Source: a virus. Taken from it: DNA of 27,707 nucleotides. The notes below the pieces were generated by a model. The model saw only the letters and a program-made list of their open reading frames with translations, was not told where the DNA came from and made no database searches. The stretch is from the IMG/VR virus record IMGVR_UViG_3300032053_000411, positions 1 through 27,707 of that record; one strand, 5' to 3'. The position numbers and the translations under genes are program-made. Shown one piece after another: positions 997 to 23,719 of the stretch; within the stretch, counting starts at the first letter, position 1; each line of letters begins with the position of its first letter.

Positions 997-1401
997 TTAA
1001 TCTCTTTCTCTTATAAGTTTTTTAAATTTATCATTCATAAAAAATCTTTTAAATTCCTCTTTTGTGTATCTAACACCCTTAGCCTGACAAGGAATTCTCG
1101 TGGGGAAGTCAATCAGGGTGAATCTTTTCGATATTGTTGTTGAATCTACGCCCAATATCTCCGACATTTGAGACAGAGACAGGCCCAGATTATACATGAA
1201 TTTGAGTATTGCATCATTGAATATTTGATTGGCTTCGGACCTATTTCTAAGTTTTACTTTATTTTTTAATAGAATTTTATAAATTGTACTTTCACTTCTT
1301 CCATCTTGTAGAGCAATATCGGCGCAACTTAGTCTTTTGTTTAAATATAAATCTATAATAATTTCATCGTACATAAAAAGATCTTTCAACCTTTTATACA
1401 C
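997..1401 (-). CDS. Small helix-turn-helix DNA-binding protein
   Basis: A 134-residue protein holding two HTH units of the resolvase/sigma-region-4 style: residues 11-55 (LYLNKRLSCADIALQDGRSE) and 65-98 (LGLSLSQMSEILGVDSTTIS). These resemble the repeated HTH units in the N-terminal half of the 591-residue fusion protein encoded just upstream (1472-3247), down to the acidic-residue-before-LY spacing. It has no nuclease domain. It may be a regulator, or a leftover or companion of the neighbouring mobile endonuclease. The longest reading begins with GTG at 1401; an ATG at 1374 (MYDEIIID) is an alternative, and neither has a convincing Shine-Dalgarno at good spacing. It sits with the fusion gene as a 2.3-kb block between the capsid terminator and the beta-helix gene. 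Confidence 0.6.
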   Translation of the reverse strand: MYKRLKDLFMYDEIIIDLYLNKRLSCADIALQDGRSESTIYKILLKNKVKLRNRSEANQIFNDAILKFMYNLGLSLSQMSEILGVDSTTISKRFTLIDFPTRIPCQAKGVRYTKEEFKRFFMNDKFKKLIRERD

Positions 1402-1471: not shown

Positions 1472-3247
1472 TTAATATAGGGGATAAATATAGCGATATT
1501 TTGGAGGAAGTGGGATTTTAATTAGGCCGTTTTCTTCAGAGAGTTGTTTTTCTGATTTGTCAACATTTTTTATTCTGCGACAACATGATTTGTGTTTTAA
1601 TTGATTATCGGACGGATCAAAATAGGAATAACTATTTGATGTTTTACCAGCCTTTTGCCATCCAGACATTCTATAAATTCCGCCATTATGACCTACCGAT
1701 GTGTCTGCATAAGAAACTAATGTTTCAATATCTTTCATATTATTTCTTATATAATTTATACAAAGATTTATAAATGTAGATCCATATGGTCTTATCACGT
1801 AGAACGGGATGCATAATCTAGTTAATTCTAATATATTCTTGTCAAGATTTTTATTTGCGCCTCTTCCGAAAGTGGCAATTCCAGTAATAATATTTCCAGT
1901 TTTTGCAATTAGTATCGTCGAAGCATTTGGGATTGTTCCAAGATAATGCTCATATCTAATTGTATTTCTAATATCATTCCTTTGACCTTTATACAATACA
2001 GATCTCGACGCATCCATTTTACCATCAGAATTAAATAATAACATATCATTTTCTGTCATGCTAGAATTATTTAAAGCATATTCGGGAAAAGCTTTCCATA
2101 CTCTCCACCATGGATGTCCATTTAAATCAAATTTTTCTATTTCTTTATGTTCAGATTCTAAAATTATTAAACCATTGTTTTCATCATAAAATCTTTCGTC
2201 GTGATATATAGCCAATTTTTGAATATGTCCATTTAATGGTTTATGCTTAGTTTCAACTGTTTTCAATATTACGGAAAACGGAATAATATGATGACAATGC
2301 AAATGTCCACCCATTTTAGATATTTGGCTTTTATAATCATTTTTCTCAAATAAATTTGTTCTCCAATTAATATAATTAGAGCCATGTCTAACCATATCTG
2401 CTATTTCAGTAATTCCGCCCTTCCAACCTGGATGATTTTCTCCTACATTTTCCCTAAATTCTTGATTATGCAATAATAATCTATATTTTATGCAATCTTT
2501 GGTAATATTAAAATATCTAGCAATTTCTTCGCAAGACATTTTCTGTTCGTTATACATATTAATTAATTCTTCGTCTTTTATATGGTTAGTTCCCTTTGTT
2601 ATTCTTGCGGTTTCTGATAACGATCTTGTTCCTTTTCCAGATTCCATTAATCTATTTTTAACAAGAGTTTCACTTTTATTAATAATTTTTGCAATTGCAA
2701 GAACATCTAATTTTTTATTCCAATATAAATCTATAATTTTCTCTATGGGCACATCTTTGCATTTATTTTGTTCCCAAGGTTTTCTTATTTGAATATTTAA
2801 TTTTTTTAATTTTCTTTTTATAGTATTGCCTGTCGTGTTAAATTTTTCACCTATTTCTACTAAAGATTTTTGTTGATCAACATATAAATTGATTAATATA
2901 TTGTCATTAATTAAATCTGTTTTATGAGATTTTTCTTGGGAGATAGAACAACTTCTTGTGCCCTCTTTAGAATCTTTTAAAATTCTATTTATTAAACCAA
3001 TACTTCTACCTAATTTTGCTGCTGTTTGTTTTAGAGTTAAGCCCTGTTTCCAGTATAATTCGACGACCTCTTCTTCTGGAATATTTTTGCGCTCAATAAT
3101 AGGTTTAACGTTTATGCCTAGTCTCTTTAATCTTCTACTAACGCAAGATTCGCTTACCTTTAAAATCCTTGCACAATCTCTTCCGGACAAATCATCTTCT
3201 GTGTAGAGTTTCGTTAAAAGATTTTCATCTATTTCGATTGACTTCAT
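1472..3247 (-). CDS. Five-HTH array + HNH nuclease + Mom-like GNAT acyltransferase fusion
   Basis: A 591-residue, three-part protein. Residues 1-262 hold five HTH units (about 1-45, 52-92, 110-152, 165-205, 220-262). Residues 290-372 form an HNH nuclease: LHCHHIIPF supplies H319/H320, ENNGL supplies N357/N358 and SEHKE supplies H367. Residues 430-561 look like the GNAT-fold Mom family, which in phage Mu modifies adenine to block restriction: HYLG (434), ITGIATFGRG, ELTR (474-477), VSYADTSVGHNGGIYRMSGW (511-530). The pairing suggests a mobile endonuclease that either gained a DNA-modifying domain or was inserted into such a gene. There is no Shine-Dalgarno before the ATG, only an AT-rich TATAGTATAAT stretch. 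It lies downstream of the capsid terminator. HTH and HNH calls are firm; the Mom assignment rests on motif recognition. Confidence 0.72.
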   Translation of the reverse strand: MKSIEIDENLLTKLYTEDDLSGRDCARILKVSESCVSRRLKRLGINVKPIIERKNIPEEEVVELYWKQGLTLKQTAAKLGRSIGLINRILKDSKEGTRSCSISQEKSHKTDLINDNILINLYVDQQKSLVEIGEKFNTTGNTIKRKLKKLNIQIRKPWEQNKCKDVPIEKIIDLYWNKKLDVLAIAKIINKSETLVKNRLMESGKGTRSLSETARITKGTNHIKDEELINMYNEQKMSCEEIARYFNITKDCIKYRLLLHNQEFRENVGENHPGWKGGITEIADMVRHGSNYINWRTNLFEKNDYKSQISKMGGHLHCHHIIPFSVILKTVETKHKPLNGHIQKLAIYHDERFYDENNGLIILESEHKEIEKFDLNGHPWWRVWKAFPEYALNNSSMTENDMLLFNSDGKMDASRSVLYKGQRNDIRNTIRYEHYLGTIPNASTILIAKTGNIITGIATFGRGANKNLDKNILELTRLCIPFYVIRPYGSTFINLCINYIRNNMKDIETLVSYADTSVGHNGGIYRMSGWQKAGKTSNSYSYFDPSDNQLKHKSCCRRIKNVDKSEKQLSEENGLIKIPLPPKYRYIYPLY

Positions 3248-3301: not shown

Positions 3302-3338
3302 ACAAAAAAAAGAAATGGGGACCGAAATCCCCATTTCT
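3302..3338 (-). terminator. Rho-independent terminator after the major capsid gene
   Basis: A perfect 10-bp stem (AGAAATGGGG at 3311-3320 paired with CCCCATTTCT at 3329-3338) encloses an 8-base loop. Read on the minus strand it is followed at once by a run of T (complement of the A run at 3304-3310). It lies 43 bases past the capsid stop, so it should end or attenuate the head-gene transcript before the HTH/HNH block. Confidence 0.88.
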
Positions 3339-3380: not shown

Positions 3381-4415
3381 TTACAAACTTCCAAGAATTA
3401 CGCGTCTCGGATCAAGCACTGCGAATCCGATATTTTGCCAAGCATAGACACCGGCTTTTCCTCTACGATGCAGGAATGGATCGTCAAACACAGTAATTGG
3501 TTCTTTTACTGGCATAACGAAAGAATCTGATTTGCTGAGGTCGAGACCTACAACAATTTCTTCGTCGCTTGTACCCATGGTAACGCCAATGCTATCAGCG
3601 AAATTCTGGAACTCTTGCCCAACTCCTAGTTCGAAGAGGGGATGAAGATTTACTCCATAAATTTTTGCCAATGGGCCGCTGTCGTCGTTGGCCAAGAAAA
3701 TTTCTCGGCGAGTAACGTCGTCAATGTCGTCAAGATCCCATTCTCTAATATCTTCGAGGGCTTCCTCACTAACATATAGATCGGTTAGTCGTCCACGATT
3801 TGGAGTTGTACTATTTCCACCAGCAAGACGAGCCATTGTGGTTTTCATCAAACTAACTAGACGCTTTGTGAATTGACCAGCCGTGGCACCACTATCGAAC
3901 ACCATAGGTGCTCCACCCTGATAATCAGTTCGTCCAGCGGCGGCAGAAATAAGTGCTCGCCAACCATCCGTATTCATTTTACGAATAAATCCATTTTGTA
4001 GAACTTCCATCGCTCGTGAAACTACATTCCATCGTGCAGCCCTAGCATAATCCAGCAACCAATCTATAGAATTACCCATCTTATAGGTTTGTACTGTTAT
4101 ACTATCGCTAACAACGGTTCTTGTAGGAATAGCGCCTTCGCTCGAAATAGTATATGCAACATATTGACCATCGTTGTGTTGCTGATACAAATCTAGAGGA
4201 TATTCCGCTGTGGCACCCGGATCTAACGGTTCGGGAGTAAAAATATTGTCTAGAATATCACCATTTAATAGACCTTCACGAAGAGGAACCTGCAAAGCAG
4301 CAGCCAATGCCTGCATAGCAACAGTTCGTTCTTTTTCATCGTTAGATGCAGTTCTCTTTAATAGTTCGACCATTGCTTCAGTCGGTTTTTGAATTTTTCT
4401 ATCTTTTGCTTTCAT
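3381..4415 (-). CDS. Major capsid protein (HK97 fold)
   Basis: A 344-residue protein without signal peptide or membrane segment. The sequence has features of phage major capsid proteins: a charged helical N-terminus (residues 1-45), a central stretch of alternating beta and helix (SEGAIPTRTVVSDSITVQTY; MEVLQNGFIRKMNTDGWRAL), and a C-terminal segment of the peripheral-domain type (VFDDPFLHRRGKAGVYAWQN, then IGFAVLDPRRVILGSL). Length and order (protease/scaffold, decoration candidate, capsid) fit HK97-type head operons. The start is set by a strong ribosome binding site, AAAAGGGGGTGA at 4422-4433, seven bases before the ATG. It is followed by the terminator at 3302-3338. The call rests on pattern and context. 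Confidence 0.82.
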   Translation of the reverse strand: MKAKDRKIQKPTEAMVELLKRTASNDEKERTVAMQALAAALQVPLREGLLNGDILDNIFTPEPLDPGATAEYPLDLYQQHNDGQYVAYTISSEGAIPTRTVVSDSITVQTYKMGNSIDWLLDYARAARWNVVSRAMEVLQNGFIRKMNTDGWRALISAAAGRTDYQGGAPMVFDSGATAGQFTKRLVSLMKTTMARLAGGNSTTPNRGRLTDLYVSEEALEDIREWDLDDIDDVTRREIFLANDDSGPLAKIYGVNLHPLFELGVGQEFQNFADSIGVTMGTSDEEIVVGLDLSKSDSFVMPVKEPITVFDDPFLHRRGKAGVYAWQNIGFAVLDPRRVILGSL

Positions 4416-4434: not shown

Positions 4435-4905
4435 TTAAATATCAATGTAAATTTTAGCGAATCCATCCGCATCAACTGTCGTTTCAAACCTACCGATTAC
4501 AGCAGCGCCAGAGTCTTGTGTAGTCTTAATAAGTCCGCTAGGACCAACATAAGCCACTCCACCCGTAGCTGGTGTGCCACTAAGCATATCGGTAACAAGC
4601 CAACCTTTTCTTAACAGTGCAACCTTTTCTCCTGGACGAACTTCCATATTAGCATAATTCTTGAAATCTCTTGTAGCACTCATCGCAGGATTAACTGGAT
4701 GTAATAGGATACCTTTTGGTACAGCGCCCGAAGCGCTTGCCGCATATCGAACAACGTTTGTAATATCGTCTAATGCAACACCCGAACCCTGGGTTTCAAC
4801 GCACGCAATTCCACCTTCTTCTTGCGTGGCCTGTGCAGCAGCAGTTGACCAATATTGAGAAATATCAGTTACTTCAGCATAATCACGATCTGGTCTAAGA
4901 GCCAT
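4435..4905 (-). CDS. Probable capsid decoration/head-stabilising protein
   Basis: A 156-residue, Ala/Gly/Val-rich, mostly beta protein (RPGEKVALLRKGWLVTDMLS; TGGVAYVGPSGLIKTTQDSG; GRFETTVDADGFAKIYIDI). It has the small beta-barrel look of capsid-associated proteins, and its place between scaffold and major capsid protein is the usual place for a decoration protein. No specific family is recognised with certainty. Its ribosome binding site (AAGGGGGTGA, about 4912-4921) overlaps the last codons of the scaffold gene, and the intergenic distance is only two bases, so translation is probably coupled. A head-tail joining or minor capsid role is the main alternative. Confidence 0.6.
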   Translation of the reverse strand: MALRPDRDYAEVTDISQYWSTAAAQATQEEGGIACVETQGSGVALDDITNVVRYAASASGAVPKGILLHPVNPAMSATRDFKNYANMEVRPGEKVALLRKGWLVTDMLSGTPATGGVAYVGPSGLIKTTQDSGAAVIGRFETTVDADGFAKIYIDI

Positions 4906-6420: not shown

Positions 6421-6470
6421 ATTTAATTAAAATTTATCTTTATTTTTTAATCATTTATTTAATTAAAATT
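6421..6470. repeat. 14-bp direct repeat, AT-only
   Basis: ATTTAATTAAAATT occurs at 6421-6434 and again at 6457-6470, flanking the gap between the protease gene and the DUF4347-like gene. It contains the palindrome TTTAATTAAA. It may be a protein-binding site, an AT-rich upstream element, or chance in AT-rich DNA. No clear promoter is visible in the gap. Confidence 0.4.
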
Positions 6471-7002
6471 ACCAATTATCCGGGAAACCCATTGACCCCG
6501 CAAAAATGGTGTGTAAATCGTTACGACTACTTTCTTTAGGAGTCCCTGTTTCGATGGTCCAATATGGTTTACGATCTGGTTCACAAGAATATAATCCACT
6601 TTGCCACGGAAAACCAATAATTCGCGTATGTCCTGCGATGCAACAACCTAATTGTTGTGATATGTTTTTAGCAAATTTGTGCCCCTTTGTTCCAAAAAAC
6701 GTTGCACATGATCTAAACCAAATAAGACTATTTTTATTAACAAGTGGTTTAAGCGTCTCTATAAATGAATCCTGGATTGTCTGTTCCCCAATATAAACGT
6801 TGCCGGGAACCCCATGGCTCCATATTTGAATAACATCAATTAGATCTAAACCAAGTTTTTTCAATTCTATTTCGGCCTCAGTCCACGATTTCACACCAAT
6901 AGATTTCCATCCAAATTGTATTTTCGAATAAATATTCCAAGATAGACCCTGGATTCCAGTATCGCCCTTGTCGTATAAAATGATTTTTTGTTTACTGTTC
7001 AT
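6469..7002 (-). CDS. DUF4347-like protein, possible caspase-fold (clan CD) protease
   Basis: A 177-residue soluble protein. The strand DVIQIWSHGVPGNVYIGEQT (residues 56-75) carries His63-Gly64. A second hydrophobic strand, SLIWFRSCATFFGTKG (92-107), ends in Cys99. GHKFAKNISQQLGCCIAGHT (107-126) follows. This order matches DUF4347, in which a SHG-x-PG-x-lG block is followed by a Cys block, a G-x-x-F-a helix and a v-A-g-h/s-T strand; His-Gly then hydrophobic-Cys is the dyad layout of clan CD cysteine peptidases. DUF4347 is usually found at the N-terminus of giant bacterial adhesins, so a free-standing copy in a phage head operon is odd. GGAGG precedes the ATG. The family resemblance is good; catalysis and role are inference. 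Confidence 0.6.
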   Translation of the reverse strand: MNSKQKIILYDKGDTGIQGLSWNIYSKIQFGWKSIGVKSWTEAEIELKKLGLDLIDVIQIWSHGVPGNVYIGEQTIQDSFIETLKPLVNKNSLIWFRSCATFFGTKGHKFAKNISQQLGCCIAGHTRIIGFPWQSGLYSCEPDRKPYWTIETGTPKESSRNDLHTIFAGSMGFPDNW

Positions 7003-9927: not shown

Positions 9928-10971
9928 TTAAAATCCATAATTATATTTAATGTCTAAACGACCTCTTTTAACATTTCTGTTACAATGCCAACAAAGTAAT
10001 GATAGATTCTCTAAATCAAATAATTTTAACAGTTCTTCCCTCGTTTTTGCAATATGGGTGGGTACAATATGATCAATATCAAAAGGATTAATTTCATAGG
10101 ATATAGAACATATTGGACAGCAGTTGTTCTGATTTTGCCTTATGTTTTCTATGTGATCACAGAGTTGTTTTGAATTATATGGTAAATCTTTTGAAAAACT
10201 AAGATTATTATTAGAAAGTGCGTGTAATCTAACCCTTAATCTTATTTGATATTTGCCTAATGGGGTAGCGTATTTCTTTTTCTGCCAGATTCTCATTTTT
10301 GTCTTTGTTTCTTCAAGATTATTTCTTTTTGTATAATAAATTCTTCTACACAACCTACATCTTAAACTATTACATTTTTTATTTGTTTCGTGTTCACATA
10401 TGCCGTGCTTTGAACAATTAGCCAATGCGGTTGTTTCATTAATTCTACTTATTATTTCCGTAGGTAGTTTACCATCTCTGTATTTAGTATGCAAACCAAG
10501 GCGATTAACCTTACTTCTAATTCGATATACAGATTTTTTTAATTTGTTTGCGCACCAATTACTTCCTTTTTCTGGATAAAATTCTTTTAAAATATCAATA
10601 TCTTGTTTAGACCATGCTCGCGATTGACACAAACCAAGACCTTTACATCTATGTTTAACAGAATCTTTACTTTTATTTAATAGTCTAGCACATTGTATTG
10701 GACCATAAATTTTATGATTATCTATTAAAAATTTATCTTCTTTTTTTGTCCAGGTGTGTCCTTGCGAAATATGATATAATTTAATTTTTTCAATTTTTAA
10801 ACATCCACAACTTTTTGTATGCCCACTTCTAAGATTACTTGTTTTAACATTAGTTTCTTTTCCACAATCACATAAACACAACCATTGAGTTTCTTTCCCC
10901 TGGTGTCCATTTCTTTTAAGAACCGTTAACTTTCCAAAAATTTGTCCGATTAGATCAAATATCTTTCTCAT
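9928..10971 (-). CDS. HNH homing endonuclease with zinc ribbon and two SANT/Myb-like domains
   Basis: A 347-residue protein. Residues 5-60 form a zinc ribbon (WLCLCDCG at 30-37, SCGC at 54-57). Residues 73-112 (TWTKKEDKFLI) and 119-160 (AWSKQDIDILKEFYP) are two SANT/Myb-type DNA-binding repeats. CSKHGIC to CRLCRR (186-209) is a further Cys-rich segment. The C-terminus is an HNH nuclease: CCPICS (284-289), DIDHIVPTH (298-306) and NLSLLCWHCN (322-331), with His301 and a structural zinc site. Its ATG overlaps the terminase stop (ATGA), and its ribosome binding site AGAGGGGTGA lies in the last terminase codons. Standing between terminase and portal, it could either be a mobile nuclease or take part in packaging, as HNH proteins do in HK97-like phages. 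The domain build favours homing. Confidence 0.82.
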   Translation of the reverse strand: MRKIFDLIGQIFGKLTVLKRNGHQGKETQWLCLCDCGKETNVKTSNLRSGHTKSCGCLKIEKIKLYHISQGHTWTKKEDKFLIDNHKIYGPIQCARLLNKSKDSVKHRCKGLGLCQSRAWSKQDIDILKEFYPEKGSNWCANKLKKSVYRIRSKVNRLGLHTKYRDGKLPTEIISRINETTALANCSKHGICEHETNKKCNSLRCRLCRRIYYTKRNNLEETKTKMRIWQKKKYATPLGKYQIRLRVRLHALSNNNLSFSKDLPYNSKQLCDHIENIRQNQNNCCPICSISYEINPFDIDHIVPTHIAKTREELLKLFDLENLSLLCWHCNRNVKRGRLDIKYNYGF

Positions 10972-13064: not shown

Positions 13065-13730
13065 TTATTTTCTTTTTTTGTATTTTTTGTGTTTTCTAAT
13101 AGGGATTGTTAAGGCTTCCTTTATCGAATATCCATAATTATTTATTCTCATAAGCAATGTTGAAACTTTTATTCCATTTTCTTCTGCTAATTCCGAGACA
13201 CATTTTTCCTTATTGTCAAGTGTAAATTTTACATTACTTCTTCTATTTCTGGCTTGTTCTTTCATGGTAGATAATTTACAATTATCCGGAGAATATCCAT
13301 CTTTTAATTTATTGTTGTTTATCCTGTCGATAGTTAATCCTTTGGGGATTTCCCCCATATCTTTAAGAAAATTCTCAAACGAACCACCTCTTTTTGGATT
13401 CCAACGATCACAGACGGTTATTCCTCTTTTCCCATAGTTTTTATATGCCGGTTCGTTTATATTATAGCATCTACTTAATATACCGGCAAATATTTGATAG
13501 GTTCTTGATTGTTTTTTGTTTCTAGTGTGTCCATGTTTTAAACTATTATTTCTACCTAAACACCCACAGCTTTTAATCGCCCCATTAATAAGATGAGATC
13601 CGCGAACTATTTTTTCTTTGTTGCAGTCGCACCTACATTGCCAATACGCTCTATTGTTTTTAATAAACATAAGTTTAACAACAGAAAGTCTTTCAAATTT
13701 TTGCCCCGTTAAATCTATAAACTTACCCAT
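13065..13730 (-). CDS. HNH/AP2-type homing endonuclease with zinc ribbon and HTH
   Basis: A 221-residue protein. Residues 3-58 form a zinc ribbon (GQKFERLSVVK; CRCDC at 32-36; SCGC at 54-57). Residues 65-166 match the phage endonuclease family with the pattern HGHT...RCYN...YKNYGKRGITVCDRW...FLKDMGEIPKG...TIDRINNN...NC...EQARNRRSN; Asp135 of the DRI motif is present, so activity is plausible. Residues 177-208 are an HTH (VSELAEENGIKVSTLLMRIN, then YGYSIKEAL). The start overlaps the last 16 bases of the ERCC4-type nuclease gene, and the stop lies seven bases before the terminase ATG, so it appears to be an insertion between these two genes. The nearest relative in the window is the C-terminal two thirds of the GIY-YIG fusion at 19303-20259. 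Confidence 0.82.
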   Translation of the reverse strand: MGKFIDLTGQKFERLSVVKLMFIKNNRAYWQCRCDCNKEKIVRGSHLINGAIKSCGCLGRNNSLKHGHTRNKKQSRTYQIFAGILSRCYNINEPAYKNYGKRGITVCDRWNPKRGGSFENFLKDMGEIPKGLTIDRINNNKLKDGYSPDNCKLSTMKEQARNRRSNVKFTLDNKEKCVSELAEENGIKVSTLLMRINNYGYSIKEALTIPIRKHKKYKKRK

Positions 13731-15935: not shown

Positions 15936-16454
15936 ATGGAAGAAATTTGGAGAGATATAATAAATTACGAAGGTTTGTATAAGATCTCTAATTACGGAAA
16001 TGTAAAAAGTCTTAATTATTTACGTACTAGAAAAGAACAAATTTTGCAACCGGGAAGAAACAAAGGTGGCTATTTATATGTAAATTTACACAAAAATGGA
16101 GTTGTAAAAAATTACAGGGTTCATCGTTTAGTCTTAGAAGCTTTCGTTGGTCCATGCCCTCCGGGAATGGAGGGGTGTCATAACAATGGAAATTCATCCA
16201 ATAATTTTGTTGGGAATTTACGATGGGACACACGCAGAAATAATCAAAAGGATAGAAAATTTCATGGAACAATAAACAATCCTGCCTGGATTGATAACAC
16301 AGGGTCGAAGCACGGTATGTCAAAATTAAACGACAAACAAATTATTGAAATAAGAGGATCAAAATTAAAAAATAAAGAATTATCAATAAAATATAATGTT
16401 AGTACGGCGCATGTATCTCGTATCAAAAACAAAAAAAGATGGAAACATATATAA
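15936..16454 (+). CDS. NUMOD4-HNH homing endonuclease (copy 1)
   Basis: A 172-residue protein. Residues 1-26 are a NUMOD4 motif (EEIWRDIINYEGLYKISNYG). Residues 62-105 are an HNH_3 nuclease (VHRLVLEAFVGPCPPGMEGC, HNNGN, NLRWDT, with His63, His82 and Asn94). Residues 129-172 are an HTH (MSKLNDKQIIEIRGSKLKNK, then a second helix ending RWKHI) that probably gives DNA specificity. It is the first gene of the rightward operon. There is no strong Shine-Dalgarno before the ATG. Its TAA stop overlaps the ATG at 16454 of the next gene as TAATG. Related copies are at 16843-17382 and 20796-21293. Confidence 0.87.
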   Translation: MEEIWRDIINYEGLYKISNYGNVKSLNYLRTRKEQILQPGRNKGGYLYVNLHKNGVVKNYRVHRLVLEAFVGPCPPGMEGCHNNGNSSNNFVGNLRWDTRRNNQKDRKFHGTINNPAWIDNTGSKHGMSKLNDKQIIEIRGSKLKNKELSIKYNVSTAHVSRIKNKKRWKHI

Positions 16455-16846
16455 TGCAAGAATTTGAACTTATTTTAATCAAGAATACTTTGCCATATCT
16501 TCATCCATATTCTTTATTGGCAAAAACTATAACTGGAAACAACGGTCATTATATTGAAAGATCTAAAATTATTGGAAATTATAAAAACCAAGCCATAGTT
16601 GAAAAAGCCAAGAAAAACTTTGAACATCTTTTGATAAATGAAATTTTACCTCCGGAATTCGAAGATTATAAGCAATGGCAGAACTGTAAAAGAACTCCAT
16701 ATGACCATATTTCTGACAATTTTTCTCACATTGAATATCCAGAATGGTATAATCCAATAAAAGCCTTAGAAAAAAGAATGAAAAATAAAGACGGGGATTC
16801 TCCTCCAAAATTACCGCCATCTAAAAAAAGGAAAATTATATTATGA
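16454..16846 (+). CDS. Unknown protein between two homing endonucleases
   Basis: A 130-residue protein from the ATG at 16454 (MQEFELILIKNTLPYLHPYS); an ATG at 16439 is possible but lies further inside the previous gene. It has no known motif. It is helical at the N-terminus, with a Pro/Trp/Tyr-rich middle (PPEFEDYKQWQNCKRTPYDH) and a basic, Pro-rich end (PPKLPPSKKRKIIL) that could bind nucleic acid. Both ends overlap a NUMOD4-HNH gene by one to four bases, so it seems to be a native phage gene into whose borders two endonuclease genes were placed. Confidence 0.6.
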   Translation: MQEFELILIKNTLPYLHPYSLLAKTITGNNGHYIERSKIIGNYKNQAIVEKAKKNFEHLLINEILPPEFEDYKQWQNCKRTPYDHISDNFSHIEYPEWYNPIKALEKRMKNKDGDSPPKLPPSKKRKIIL

Positions 16847-17382
16847 TAGAAATATGGAAAGATATAATTGGATTTGAAGGAATATATCAATTTTCTAATT
16901 TATATAGAATTAAAAGATTATTTAATAGACACGGAAATATTTCTAATAAAATACTAAAAATACAAATTGGTGGCGAATATCCACATATCGGTTTGCGCAA
17001 AAATAATAAGTACCACACTTTAAAAATTCATCATTTAGTTTTAGAATATTTTGTTGGTCCGTGTCCCGTTGGTATGGAATGTAGACATTTAAATAGTATT
17101 AATACAGATTATAAAATTGAAAATTTACGATGGGACACCCATAAAAACAATATGAAGGATTCGATAGAAAGAGGAACTTTTCATATTCCCAACAACGCAG
17201 GATCAGAACGAATAAATGCAAAATTAAATAAATGGAAAGTTAGAATAATAAAAAGACTAATAGAAGATGGATATTTAACATTTAAAGAAATAGCTAAATT
17301 GTTTAACGTTTCATATACTATGATTTGGCTAATAGCAAATAATAAAAGATTTAAATATACTGTTAACGGAGATTGCAATTGA
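16843..17382 (+). CDS. NUMOD4-HNH homing endonuclease (copy 2)
   Basis: A 179-residue protein with NUMOD4 at 1-25 (EIWKDIIGFEGIYQFSNLYR), an HNH_3 nuclease at 62-103 (IHHLVLEYFVGPCPVGMECR, H82, NLRWDT at 94-99) and a C-terminal HTH at 127-170 (NAKLNKWKVRIIKRLIEDGY, then LTFKEIAKLFNVSYTMIWLI). The dipeptide before the central His is RH instead of CH in the other copies. AAAGGA ten bases before the ATG is the ribosome binding site. ATG overlaps the previous stop as ATGA; its stop overlaps the methyltransferase TTG start as TTGA. It therefore sits seamlessly between an unknown gene and a methyltransferase gene. Confidence 0.86.
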   Translation: MIEIWKDIIGFEGIYQFSNLYRIKRLFNRHGNISNKILKIQIGGEYPHIGLRKNNKYHTLKIHHLVLEYFVGPCPVGMECRHLNSINTDYKIENLRWDTHKNNMKDSIERGTFHIPNNAGSERINAKLNKWKVRIIKRLIEDGYLTFKEIAKLFNVSYTMIWLIANNKRFKYTVNGDCN

Positions 17383-18077
17383 TAGATTTATTGCAAGGAA
17401 AATTTGAAGAAATAGATTTAAGTAAATATGGAAAATTTAATCTCGCTTTTTTAGATCCTCCCGATAATACTAAAATGAAATATGAAAACTATAAGGATAA
17501 TTTAAAATCAAAAGACTATATAAAATTATTAAATGTCTGGGTATTAAAAGCGTGTTCCTTAACAGACGGCGCAGTTTTTGTAAGTATCGCGGAAAAATGG
17601 ATGCCATATTTAGAACAAATAATACTCGACAATAAAATAAAGTTGGTTCAAAGAATCTTTTGGTACTATTCGTTTTGTCAGGCCAATAAAAAACGCTATT
17701 CCTCATCCATTAGACCAATTTATTGGTTGAACAACGATTTAATTTATCCAGACAAAATAAAGGTCTTATCAGATCGTATAATAAAATATAAAGATAAGAG
17801 GGGAGATCCATTGGGGAAGCTTCCAAATAATATGTGGGATTATTCGCGTGTGTGTGGCACGTTTAAAGAGCGAAGATCTTTCCATCCGTGCCAACACCCG
17901 GAAGCTCTTTTAGAAAGAATCATATTGGGTCACTCGAAAGAAAATGAGACAATACTAGATCCATTTGTAGGGAGTGGTGGTACGGCTATTGTTTGTAAAA
18001 AATTAAATAGAAATTGTGTAGGGATTGATGTCAGTCAATATTATTTGGACAAAATAAAGGAAATTATAGATGGATAA
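17379..18077 (+). CDS. DNA methyltransferase (N6-adenine/N4-cytosine type)
   Basis: A 232-residue orphan methyltransferase. Motif IV is FLDPPDN (residues about 24-30), a DPPD form of the usual DPPY catalytic motif that is also seen in other phage enzymes. Motif I is ILDPFVGSGGT (about 192-202), near the C-terminus, so the order is beta-class (IV before I). It would transfer a methyl group from S-adenosylmethionine to an amino group of A or C in a short target, protecting phage DNA from restriction or marking it. The TTG at 17379 is chosen because GGAG stands seven bases upstream; a TTG at 17373 is too close. No partner restriction enzyme is nearby, but HNH endonucleases are. Confidence 0.85.
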   Translation: MIDLLQGKFEEIDLSKYGKFNLAFLDPPDNTKMKYENYKDNLKSKDYIKLLNVWVLKACSLTDGAVFVSIAEKWMPYLEQIILDNKIKLVQRIFWYYSFCQANKKRYSSSIRPIYWLNNDLIYPDKIKVLSDRIIKYKDKRGDPLGKLPNNMWDYSRVCGTFKERRSFHPCQHPEALLERIILGHSKENETILDPFVGSGGTAIVCKKLNRNCVGIDVSQYYLDKIKEIIDG

Positions 18078-19302: not shown

Positions 19303-20259
19303 GTGATAAATAAAAATATGAACGCGACTGATACGTATGATATTTATAAAATAATATGTCTCATAAATAATAAATTTTATATAGGAAGTAGTATAAATAT
19401 AAATAAAAGATTAAAAGCACATGTGAATTTATTAAAACGCAATAAACATCCAAATAAACGACTACAAAATGCTTGGGACGAATGTGGCGAGAAAAATTTT
19501 AAATTTGAGATTATTGAAACTGTCTATGACATAAATCAATTGTTGATAAGAGAAAAATGGTGGATTGACACTACCAATTGCTGTAATAGAAAGATAGGAT
19601 TTAATATTTCTCATGATCCTCATAAAATCAATAATGGAAGATTTATTGATTTAACTGGACAGAAATTTGGGGAACTGACTGTTGATAAATATATGGGACA
19701 AAGCAAATGGTTGTGTAGGTGCGATTGTGGTAAAGAAAAGATAGTTCTTTGCTGTAATTTAAGAAATGGTAATACTAAAAGTTGCGGGTGTAAAGAAGGA
19801 AATTTAAAACATGGCCATAGTCAAACAAAGATTTATAATATATGGAGAGACATGAATCAGAGATGTAATAATAAAAATAATAAAGGTTATAAAAATTATG
19901 GGAAAAGAAAGATTAAGGTATGTTATAGGTGGTCTAATAAAAATCCCAGAGGATTTGAAAATTTTTATAAAGATGTTGGCGATCCACCAAAAGGAAAATC
20001 AATAAATAGAATAAATAATAGTGTAGGGTATTTCTCAAGTAATTGGCGATGGGCAACAAGTGCTCAGATAAATAGAAACATGAGAAGCAATAGAAATTAT
20101 TTTTTAAACAATAAAAAACAGTGTCTAGTAGATATAGCAAAGGAATACGATATTCATATAAATACATTAAGGCATAGATTAGATAAACTTGGCTTATCTA
20201 TAGAAGAAGCAATAACAAGACCAATAGACAAAAGATATTCTCACGGGAAAAGGGGGTGA
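19303..20259 (+). CDS. GIY-YIG nuclease fused to zinc ribbon and degenerate HNH/AP2-type endonuclease
   Basis: A 318-residue chimera. Residues 11-93 are a GIY-YIG nuclease: YDIYKI (12-17), FYIGSS (25-30), Arg36 and Glu84 in IREKWW. Residues 113-163 are a zinc ribbon (GRFIDLTGQKFGELTV, CRCDCG at 138-143, SCGC at 160-163). Residues 169-263 match the endonuclease family of the 221-residue protein at 13065-13730 (LKHGHS, RCNN, YKNYGKRKIKVCYRW, NRNMRSN), and 273-305 are the same HTH. The usual DRI motif reads NRI here (Asn235) and NC-RW reads NWRW, so the second nuclease is probably inactive and kept for DNA binding, with GIY-YIG cutting. It starts with GTG at 19303 or, more likely, ATG at 19318; no clear ribosome binding site is seen. 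Confidence 0.83.
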   Translation: MINKNMNATDTYDIYKIICLINNKFYIGSSININKRLKAHVNLLKRNKHPNKRLQNAWDECGEKNFKFEIIETVYDINQLLIREKWWIDTTNCCNRKIGFNISHDPHKINNGRFIDLTGQKFGELTVDKYMGQSKWLCRCDCGKEKIVLCCNLRNGNTKSCGCKEGNLKHGHSQTKIYNIWRDMNQRCNNKNNKGYKNYGKRKIKVCYRWSNKNPRGFENFYKDVGDPPKGKSINRINNSVGYFSSNWRWATSAQINRNMRSNRNYFLNNKKQCLVDIAKEYDIHINTLRHRLDKLGLSIEEAITRPIDKRYSHGKRG

Positions 20260-20262
20260 CTG

Positions 20263-20796
20263 GTGGATTTTAAGACTTTTCAGGAAGAATCTCGAAGGAC
20301 GGCAACTTATCCTGGTTTAAATGAGTCTATTGAATATCCATTGATGGGGTTAATTGGGGAAATGGGTGAGCTTTCTGAGAAATTTAAAAAAGTTTTGCGT
20401 GACAACAATGGTGCGATGTCTCAAGATAGAATTGATGGAATAATTGGTGAATTGGGCGACCTTTGTTGGTATCTGTTCCAAATATATTCTGAATTAAAGA
20501 TTGATCTTCAAAATAATTATACAGAGATGTCCATTGATAAAAATAAATTAAATTCTACACTAAGTGTTCTTGTGGCCATAAATTGCTGCGTGTCAGATAT
20601 AGCCATATATTGTTTGTCTAGCAATAAAACATTAATTGGTGAATTAACAAATAATGCAAATACTTTAATTTCTCTTATAAAAGAAGTATGTAGGTTATGT
20701 AATGTATCAATAGAAGAAGTTATGGATTATAATATTAAAAAATTACAGGATAGATTAAAAAGAGGAGTAATAAAAGGGGATGGGGATAAAAGGTAG
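20263..20796 (+). CDS. MazG-like nucleotide pyrophosphohydrolase
   Basis: A 177-residue protein with the all-alpha NTP pyrophosphohydrolase motif. Helix one reads YPLMGLIGEMGELSEKFKK (25-43) with Glu33, Glu36 and Glu39; helix two reads IIGELGDLCWYLFQIY (60-75) with Glu63 and Asp66. These bind magnesium for hydrolysis of (d)NTPs to monophosphates. In phages, MazG proteins are thought to alter nucleotide or ppGpp pools. It continues with about 100 helical residues. It starts with GTG at 20263, and AAAAGGGGGTGA (20248-20259) directly upstream overlaps the end of the GIY-YIG fusion gene. It ends in TAGTG with the next endonuclease. Confidence 0.82.
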   Translation: MDFKTFQEESRRTATYPGLNESIEYPLMGLIGEMGELSEKFKKVLRDNNGAMSQDRIDGIIGELGDLCWYLFQIYSELKIDLQNNYTEMSIDKNKLNSTLSVLVAINCCVSDIAIYCLSSNKTLIGELTNNANTLISLIKEVCRLCNVSIEEVMDYNIKKLQDRLKRGVIKGDGDKR

Positions 20797-21293
20797 TGTG
20801 GAGAGATATAATAAATTTTAAAAATAAGTACGAGATATCTAATGCGGGCGAAATTCGTAATAAAAATACTGGAAGAATTTTATGCCCAAGCAAAGACGGT
20901 AGTGGATATTTAAGAATTGGTTTGTGTAAAAACGGAAAGATGAAATCCTTTTCGGTTCATAGGTTGGTTTTGGAATCATTTATCGGTCCTTGTCCACCGG
21001 GAATGGAATCTTGCCATAACGATGGAAATATATACAATAATGATGTAAATAATTTAAGGTTCGATACTCATCAAAATAATAATAGAGACAAAATCAAACA
21101 TAATACAATTTTTAGACCAAGGGGATCTAGACATCCTCGTTCAAAATTAAATGAGTTACAGGTTAGAATAATAAAATATTTACTTAAAGATAATAAATTA
21201 ACATTAATGGAAATAAGTAGAATATTCTTTGTTTCTAAAAGAACTATTGAACATATTAAATATGGAACAGCATGGAAACATGTAGGAATATAG
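20796..21293 (+). CDS. NUMOD4-HNH homing endonuclease (copy 3)
   Basis: A 165-residue protein with a shortened NUMOD4 (MWRDIINFKNKYEISNAGEI; the E-I of E-I-W is lost at the start), an HNH_3 nuclease at 54-95 (VHRLVLESFIGPCPPGMESC, HNDGN, NNLRFDT, with His55, His74 and Asn86) and an HTH at 122-161 (RSKLNELQVRIIKYLLKDNK, then LTLMEISRIFFVSKRTIEHI). The GTG start overlaps the MazG stop and its TAG overlaps the GTG of the following gene; both junctions read TAGTG. It is closest to copy 1 in the HNH core. Confidence 0.86.
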   Translation: MWRDIINFKNKYEISNAGEIRNKNTGRILCPSKDGSGYLRIGLCKNGKMKSFSVHRLVLESFIGPCPPGMESCHNDGNIYNNDVNNLRFDTHQNNNRDKIKHNTIFRPRGSRHPRSKLNELQVRIIKYLLKDNKLTLMEISRIFFVSKRTIEHIKYGTAWKHVGI

Positions 21294-22510: not shown

Positions 22511-23719
22511 TTAACTACTTCTTCTCGATCTCAAATGGCCAAGAACAACGTCTAGATTTGACAGATCATTAATTAGTATATAGATACAGACTACTTTGTT
22601 CCTTGTATATGCAGTTCTCTTTCTAGTAAGTTTAACACGATATTCTGGCTTATCAAGTAGGCCAAGAACTTCGAGATAAACTGTTCCTTTTGAAGTTAAA
22701 ACTTTGAAATCTGGTCTATACCTTCTTTTCCCCAACACAAGAAGACTCTGGGTTTCATATTCAAAGCCCCTCTTAAATAGCCAATCTGATACAATAGCTT
22801 CATAACCGCTTCGTAAAAAATCGCCTCGGTTATTGTAGAAAGGGGTTCCATAGGGAGCTCTATCAAGATGACGGCGTTTGTATTCCTTTTCGCCTAAATT
22901 TACTTTGACATACTTGACTATAGACGGAAAACTATAACCAGTTATATTGGCTATGGTCCGTAGACTATATCCTTTAGCAGAAAGAATTAACGCTCTGCGT
23001 ATGGGAACTTTTCCCATCTTCCTGCGTTTATCTCCTCCTCTCATTCTACCATTATTTATCATTGTGACATGTAACTTATTGTTGATACTTTTAATATATC
23101 CACTTAGGGCGATTGCTTCAACTTGCAACTTTCTAGCTATTTCAGAGCAACCAAATCCCCTGGAAACTAAGTTTCTTACCTTTTGTATGGAAACACACCG
23201 GACTCTATTGGCCATGCTGTTCTTTTTAGGTTGGTTGTATAGAAGCTTTCTGTTAACGAAAAATTGTTTCAGCAACTGGGGCTCAAGAAGACCGAGCCAT
23301 TTATTGAGAGTTGTCCTAGATATATAAAGTTCTTCGCAAACATCCCCCAACAAAGCCCCACTTCTTGCTAAAGCCCTTATTCTTGATAAAGACTTATTCA
23401 CCAAATCGCGCTTAAGCCAACCCCTAGTTACGCTTTTCTTTTTATGACTATTTTCCAATAAATTTGAAAGCAACGATTGATCCAGCTTTAAAAGGTGTTT
23501 ACGTAAAGTTGAAGCACTTATACAAAGACTTTCAGCCACTTGATAAAAGCATACTCCAGAAGCCGCAGCTTCTTTTATTTCCGATTTCTTGCCAGCCACT
23601 AAAGCTTCTTTCGTTGGATGGAAAGTTAGATTCCCTGCGGTTCTTTTATTTGTTATCAATGCCATATTTCTTGGCCCACAAATAAAAACTTCACCGTTAT
23701 TTGGGATTCCCGAAAACAT
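22511..23719 (-). CDS. HTH-array PD-(D/E)XK putative homing endonuclease
   Basis: A 402-residue protein. Residues 43-272 contain four HTH units (about 43-82, 107-145, 175-212, 236-272; for example SGALLGDVCEELYISRTTLN and AKGYSLRTIANITGYSFPSI). Residues 298-395 form a PD-(D/E)XK nuclease: SGYEAIVSDWLFKRGFEYE (Glu307), RYRPDFKV (Asp337), VYLEVLGLLDKPEYRVKLTR (Glu350), with later Lys residues replacing the Lys of E-x-K. The E-V-x-G-l...eYr-x-K...Y pattern occurs in mobile phage endonucleases. There is no Shine-Dalgarno before the ATG. GC content seems higher than in neighbouring genes, suggesting transfer. The repeated HTH array parallels that of the HNH/Mom fusion at 1472-3247, though the nuclease is unrelated. 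Confidence 0.74.
   Translation of the reverse strand: MFSGIPNNGEVFICGPRNMALITNKRTAGNLTFHPTKEALVAGKKSEIKEAAASGVCFYQVAESLCISASTLRKHLLKLDQSLLSNLLENSHKKKSVTRGWLKRDLVNKSLSRIRALARSGALLGDVCEELYISRTTLNKWLGLLEPQLLKQFFVNRKLLYNQPKKNSMANRVRCVSIQKVRNLVSRGFGCSEIARKLQVEAIALSGYIKSINNKLHVTMINNGRMRGGDKRRKMGKVPIRRALILSAKGYSLRTIANITGYSFPSIVKYVKVNLGEKEYKRRHLDRAPYGTPFYNNRGDFLRSGYEAIVSDWLFKRGFEYETQSLLVLGKRRYRPDFKVLTSKGTVYLEVLGLLDKPEYRVKLTRKRTAYTRNKVVCIYILINDLSNLDVVLGHLRSRRSS

Follow-up and report, generated by a model that had tools for sequence, protein, structure and literature searches.

The 1472-3247 gene described here encodes a 591-aa protein in which five HTH units, an HNH nuclease domain and a Mom-type DNA-modification domain are joined on one chain. 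The gene was found in the window, i.e. the whole stretch of viral DNA analysed (27,707 nucleotides, IMG/VR record IMGVR_UViG_3300032053_000411), where it directly follows the major capsid protein gene. Nine further viral lineages carry the same fusion at the same place, and other related phages have a different nuclease gene there, or none. The explanation we prefer, to which we give an even chance of being right, is a free-standing gene for a homing-type endonuclease to which a Mom-type modification domain is attached; the protein is proposed both to cut and to protect DNA.

Domain architecture of the fusion protein

The gene is a single uninterrupted frame on the minus strand, free of frameshifts (Table 1); the plus strand over the same positions contains many stops. 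Matches to Pfam and PHROG, fold comparison and homologous proteins agreed on the order HTH, HNH and Mom within one protein, as had been proposed in a sequence-only reading of this DNA. No full-length relative was present among 50,697 annotated phage records, and a PDB sequence search with the window protein gave chance-level matches only. A cellular or prophage origin was rejected, as two scans of genome contigs returned zero relatives.

Table 1. Features of the fusion gene and of its surroundings in the window
Feature	Position	Strand	Basis
HTH x5 - HNH - Mom fusion gene, homing-type nuclease with DNA-modification domain	1472..3247	minus	591-aa ORF
Five-unit HTH array, residues 5-266	2450..3235	minus	Pfam and PHROG matches, alignment, helix triplets in the model
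HNH nuclease domain, residues 267-372	2132..2449	minus	PHROG match, alignment, hhalign, dN/dS
Linker with conserved HPWW-W motif, residues 373-425	1973..2131	minus	Alignment
Mom (GNAT-fold) domain, residues 426-590	1478..1972	minus	Pfam, PHROG, fold match, residues, dN/dS
Major capsid protein gene, constant upstream neighbour of the slot	3381..4415	minus	phrog_2522 (E=1e-7), A4 family, 80 loci
Intrinsic terminator between the capsid and nuclease genes	3311..3338	minus	Also conserved in L001
134-aa two-HTH protein, usual downstream neighbour of the slot	997..1401	minus	Pfam HTH, slot loci

The HTH units had been placed at residues 1-262. Five were confirmed, at residues ~5-50, 56-98, 114-156, 167-209 and 223-266. 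Pfam HTH/Sigma70_r4 families matched residues 1-265 (down to 1e-14), and helix triplets for the HTH units were visible in the AlphaFold model of the whole protein.

The HNH core, located at residues 290-372 in the sequence-only reading, could be verified and extended to residues ~267-372. The region matched phrog_8446 ('HNH endonuclease', E=1e-30) in three stretches, the best of which (residues 173-328) spanned both HTH and HNH. In an hhalign comparison the ten fused HNH regions aligned with canonical HNHs and with the HNHs of other proteins encoded at the same site with a probability of 99.6% (E=1e-24). The residues of the beta-beta-alpha metal core (H-H / N / H), H319, H320, N358 and H367, were invariant in nine intact homologs. 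Both CxxC pairs of a zinc ribbon were absent from the window protein and its relatives alike; such a ribbon is common in HNH endonucleases, not obligatory. The HNH part of the whole-protein AlphaFold model was poor (pLDDT about 30-65) and supports no structural statement.

For the C-terminal domain, Pfam PF25680 (Mom) matched residues 427-590 with E=1.2e-22 (81 bits, cut-off 27.1) and phrog_1384 ('Mom-like DNA modification protein') matched the window protein with E=6e-27. A separate AlphaFold model of residues 401-591 had a mean pLDDT of 90. When this model was used for a fold search of the PDB, the ranking was headed by both chains of the Mu Mom S124A crystal structure (8bv8; E=3e-10 and 1e-9), with a TM score of 0.62-0.70. 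The assignment of this domain as a Mom-type GNAT, made earlier from short motifs, was thus borne out by the predicted fold.

Residues H434, Y435, E474, R477, S490 and D515 of the window protein correspond to H58, Y59, E108, R111, S124 and D149 of Mu Mom, and G519-H520 and Y525 to G153-R154 and Y159, His replacing Mu R154. All Mu Mom core positions compared (58, 59, 111, 124, 149, 156 and 159; H, Y, R, S, D, G and Y) were present in the window protein. Among the ten HNH-Mom proteins the Mom residues H, Y, E, R, D, G, H and Y were invariant (10/10). The position of Mu S124 was Ser in the window protein and L177 and Cys in the other eight; S124A is named an 'inactive mutant' in the PDB entry (8bv8), and the Ser to Cys change in most of the family calls for caution about predicted Mom catalysis. 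Judged from its residues, the window domain looks intact as a Mom-type DNA modifier, with adenine acylation as its predicted reaction. It shares with Mu Mom and Mom-like proteins (PF25680, phrog_1384) the sequence family, the GNAT fold and the core residues, including the Ser equivalent to S124, but differs from them in being fused to an HTH array and an HNH domain. In addition, HNH-Mom domains form a clade separate from the standalone Mom proteins sampled, and, unlike in Mu, no com-like gene adjoins the window fusion.

Homologous fusions and selection

A search for homologs with the same domain order yielded nine further lineages with an HTHn-HNH-Mom protein. The protein of L001 (the same as L177 and L257) was 82% identical to the window protein over its full length and encoded at the same location. 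The other eight IMG/VR lineages (L189, L190, L191, L197, L198/L199, L202, L204 and L205) showed 40-45% identity. The number of HTH units varied from three to six among the homologs. In L205 an in-frame TAG (L205:6448-6450) was found at a Trp that is conserved in HNH-Mom relatives, both halves being otherwise complete.

The dN/dS ratio, computed between the window gene and that of L001, was 0.13 for HTH units 1-3, 0.30 for units 4-5, 0.095 for the HNH part (residues 266-400) and 0.047 for Mom, making Mom the most constrained and the last two HTH units the fastest-diverging part. The values for HNH and Mom indicate that both catalytic parts are maintained by purifying selection. Fast divergence of the last two HTH units is as expected for changing specificity. 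The Mom-fused proteins grouped as a single clade of the HNH tree (support 97/91), and the HNH-Mom proteins did so in the Mom tree (100/100). Since nine other lineages keep the order and each part is under selection, the fusion is not a chance product; it is real and old. All fused Mom domains, whatever their nuclease, clustered weakly in the Mom tree (63/86), which could reflect one origin with a nuclease swap or several origins.

Occupation of the site downstream of the capsid gene

A TATAAT-like box was seen by eye right before the nuclease start, and a promoter scan gave no hit above shuffled sequences. To survey the slot, the gene after the capsid gene was read at 80 loci with this capsid protein. 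All ten lineages had HTHn-HNH-Mom immediately past the 3' end of this capsid gene. Elsewhere the slot contained an HTH-HNH-HTH protein of ~420 aa without Mom (L179-L183, L193, L207-L209, L213, L228 and L230), a shorter HTH-HNH protein, a PD-(D/E)XK/Vsr-type nuclease-Mom fusion (L247 and L099, the latter obtained through the Mom search) or no nuclease gene at all. The Mom domain is therefore dispensable for homing at this site, as HTH-HNH proteins without it occupy the same slot.

Close relatives illustrate the exchange. The occupied L197 and the empty L200 were 87% identical until ~76 bp past the capsid stop; there L197 had 1.55 kb, with this gene alone, against 45 bp in L200, after which identity resumed at 88%. 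L190 and L196/L230 had different nucleases between similar flanks, and L190, L193, L196 and L230 combined close capsid proteins with differing slot genes. Presence, absence and replacement were thus all seen at one slot, in line with the earlier suggestion of a mobile element, and presence or absence at a single site among related genomes is one of the marks of a free-standing homing endonuclease.

On the capsid tree the HNH-Mom state was scattered, with 8 changes, at least 3 of them forced by well-supported branches. Together with the single HNH-Mom clade, this shows that one lineage moved among, or was lost from, many related phages. Mom and capsid distances were partially correlated (Mantel r 0.77, p 0.009); descent therefore contributes to part of the history. 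Wholly vertical inheritance was rejected as a full account because of the scattered slot states; a partly vertical history stands.

In 43 related contigs (up to 181 kb, many longer than 100 kb) clear Mom matches were confined to nuclease genes, the interrupted copy of L205 included. Those of the 43 without such a nuclease gene had no clear Mom match; many contigs are fragments, so this absence is suggestive. The possibility that the fused copy is redundant with another Mom of the same phage was discarded, as none was found; the one weak match (G009) contained no Mom-like ORF.

Other nuclease-Mom pairings and Hef

Mom domains were also fused to nucleases of another type. Additional Vsr-like nuclease-Mom fusions were present in L115 and L145, and the Vsr/PD-(D/E)XK-like Mom fusions bear other arrays typical of homing enzymes, either HTHs or the Pfam 'homing endonuclease associated repeat'. 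Two sites of the L099 phage are occupied by a nuclease-Mom gene; the one at the second site (L294) combines homing-endonuclease-associated repeats, a Vsr-like nuclease and Mom. Just upstream of it, L294:1612-2184 encodes a 190-aa protein that consists solely of such repeats.

Searches with the L145 and L247 proteins matched annotated 'Hef-like homing endonucleases' of Campylobacter phages, Bacillus phages (AR9, PBS1), Yersinia phage phiR1-37 and Pseudomonas phage PA5oct, with alignments covering the nuclease and Mom part or the Mom part alone. Hef of phiR1-37 scored above the Pfam Mom cut-off (1.7e-10) and Hef of CP81 matched phrog_1384 (2e-9); the other Hef proteins, compared individually with Mom profiles, stayed below significance. 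Aligned as profiles by hhalign, eight Hef C-termini matched 23 Mom domains with a probability of 98.6% (E=9.5e-16). In the fold search with the window Mom model, G4KKB0 (561 aa) and the homing endonucleases of CP21 and PA5oct ranked next to Mom; G4KKB0 has the length of phiR1-37 gp171 and is presumably that protein. The profile match and the fold matches together indicate that members of the Hef family have a divergent Mom-like domain at the C-terminus; in it the HY motif is without its Tyr, and the Ser and the GH loop are likewise lost or changed. A Hef query matched 545 phage records over at least part of its length, and one Hef-like record with a Mom-like tail is annotated 'nuclease/acetyltransferase'.

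The Hef homolog of FL23 lies between nrdA and nrdB, as does U5 hef. In Acinetobacter phages KARL-1 and Meroveus (L301, L302) a Hef-like nuclease with a Mom-like tail adjoins the T4-type major head gene, the same kind of neighbourhood as that of the window gene.

Like Hef as described in reviews and citing papers (phage U5; phrog_559, phrog_3339), the window protein is a phage nuclease that is free-standing and ends in a Mom-like domain; however, the Hef nuclease is PD-(D/E)XK/Vsr-like, the HTH array is absent and the Mom-like active site is altered. Consistent with an HNH nuclease rather than one of the Hef type, the window protein matched neither phrog_559 nor phrog_3339. The REase-Mom fusions described in jumbo phages, interpreted as restriction-modification (PMC7824862), also have nuclease and Mom on one chain, but their nuclease has an REase fold and homing is not mentioned in that paper. 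HTH-array HNH endonucleases (phrog_8446; gp23 of haloarchaeal virus HJTV-4; L179-L183) share the array and the HNH domain, and those of L179-L183 also the locus, but lack Mom.

The statement in the sequence-only reading that no homing endonuclease of this build had been described holds for the exact HTH array-HNH-Mom build. It does not hold for the pairing, since nuclease-Mom fusions of jumbo phages had been published (PMC7824862) and Hef bears the Mom-like tail. The HNH/HTH-array/Mom protein is therefore a new form of a known nuclease-Mom pairing.

Proposed function and alternatives

To judge from its domain families, the window protein is probably a nuclease that seeks out and cleaves DNA next to the capsid gene. 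Its HTH array would recognise a long target lying at the 3' end of that gene or close to it, the HNH core would cleave genomes lacking the nuclease gene at this site, and repair off a gene-bearing genome would copy the cassette and adjacent markers into the cut phage. The array would also bring the Mom domain to the same DNA. There, or along the phage DNA, Mom may acylate adenines, and such marks could keep both restriction enzymes and the protein's own nuclease from cutting gene-bearing DNA. Several observations count against this explanation: the Cys at the S124 position in eight of the ten HNH-Mom proteins, the lack of a zinc ribbon and the poor model of the HNH part, the Mom-less HTH-HNH proteins in the slot, and the partial correlation of Mom with capsid distances. 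A stronger version is a self-protecting gene drive, in which one polypeptide recognises the capsid-side site, cuts rivals and chemically marks its own site, the Hef tail being an older, altered form; we regard it as tentative and on the unlikely side. The sequence-only reading had likewise suggested a self-protecting mobile element that marks recipient DNA; what it observed is confirmed, and its interpretation is partly supported, by the architecture, the Mom fold and the mobility at the slot.

The same two activities could instead serve the phage, in a single-chain exclusion system resembling restriction-modification: Mom would modify the carrier phage's DNA across the whole genome, and host or superinfecting-phage DNA without the mark would be destroyed by the nuclease. 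This was the interpretation given to the jumbo-phage fusions (PMC7824862), and the strong selection on both domains and the recurrence of Mom with different nucleases agree with it. We consider it unlikely for the window gene, as array-type DNA-binding modules and a fixed capsid-side slot resemble site-specific homing and not general restriction, and so do the rapid presence/absence in near relatives and the nuclease-only versions in the slot. Those nuclease-only versions, and the many free-standing Mom genes among phages, would also suit a Mom domain that takes no part in the nuclease reaction and is cargo, an anti-restriction gift offsetting the cost of a selfish nuclease. For this a single polypeptide is unneeded, yet every intact Mom copy of the HNH clade is fused, and Mom fusions involve no fewer than two nuclease types, which makes cargo very doubtful.

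A Mom domain that has ceased to modify DNA, and instead helps the nuclease to read DNA or its bases, is likely in Hef with its eroded Mom site, and the Cys in eight of the ten HNH-Mom proteins points the same way. For the window gene such a role is distinctly unlikely: the window protein and L177 keep all tested Mu-like core residues, Ser included, and Mom is under the strongest constraint. Finally, the sequence-only reading had raised an HNH insertion inside an anti-restriction gene, and separate genes with a frameshift as grounds for refutation. An inserted HNH, or two genes joined by frameshift or assembly error, now has a negligible probability. The two parts are separate ORFs in L205, but this lone split homolog differs solely by its TAG, and nine intact fused homologs refute such an origin. 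Mom is a C-terminal addition, a Mom-less HNH clade shares the slot, and in the related contigs neither a mom gene, interrupted or separate, nor a standalone relative was seen.

Our preferred explanation, a homing-type endonuclease that cuts and protects, bears on a general question. Some free-standing homing endonucleases bind, and may cut, their own sequence, as stated in a paper citing SegH/Hef work (PMC10448857). A DNA-modifying domain within the protein would be a direct, testable answer to how such endonucleases coexist with their own target, and as the cutter-modifier pairing recurs in unrelated phage homing nucleases, self-protection by mobile cutters becomes testable. No connection between Mom and homing was found in the literature searched, mostly papers outside subscription journals, and the two literatures joined here, on Mom modification and on Hef-type homing, do not cite each other in those papers. 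Specialists would find it surprising that Mom domains are linked to homing endonucleases, Hef included. The annotation of Hef, a widespread phage protein family, would change, and, if active, the domain would be a sequence-addressed adenine acylator and a possible tool.

Other genes of the window and other Mom genes

The window is unusually dense in homing-type genes, with at least six more nuclease candidates (9928-10971, 13065-13730, 15936-16454, 16843-17382, 19303-20259, 20796-21293 and 22511-23719). Their types are HNH, NUMOD4-HNH_3, GIY-YIG and an HTH array with a possible PD-(D/E)XK-like C-terminus. Amid them, 17373-18077 encodes an N6/N4-type DNA methyltransferase (Pfam 1e-36).

Compared with L001, the window genes 4435-4905 and 6469-7002 had zero synonymous differences, against dS values of 0.15-0.26 for the genes between and beside them and 0.74 for the nuclease gene. 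This uneven dS is a recombination mosaic.

In L113, L128, L131 and L175 a pair of Mom-like genes, differing from each other, shared one locus of the same phage. In L010, L011 and Microbacterium phages a free-standing Mom gene often follows a gene with a ParB-like nuclease domain, and the Mom gene of cyanophage DSL-LC03 overlaps one that is annotated as a type II restriction endonuclease.
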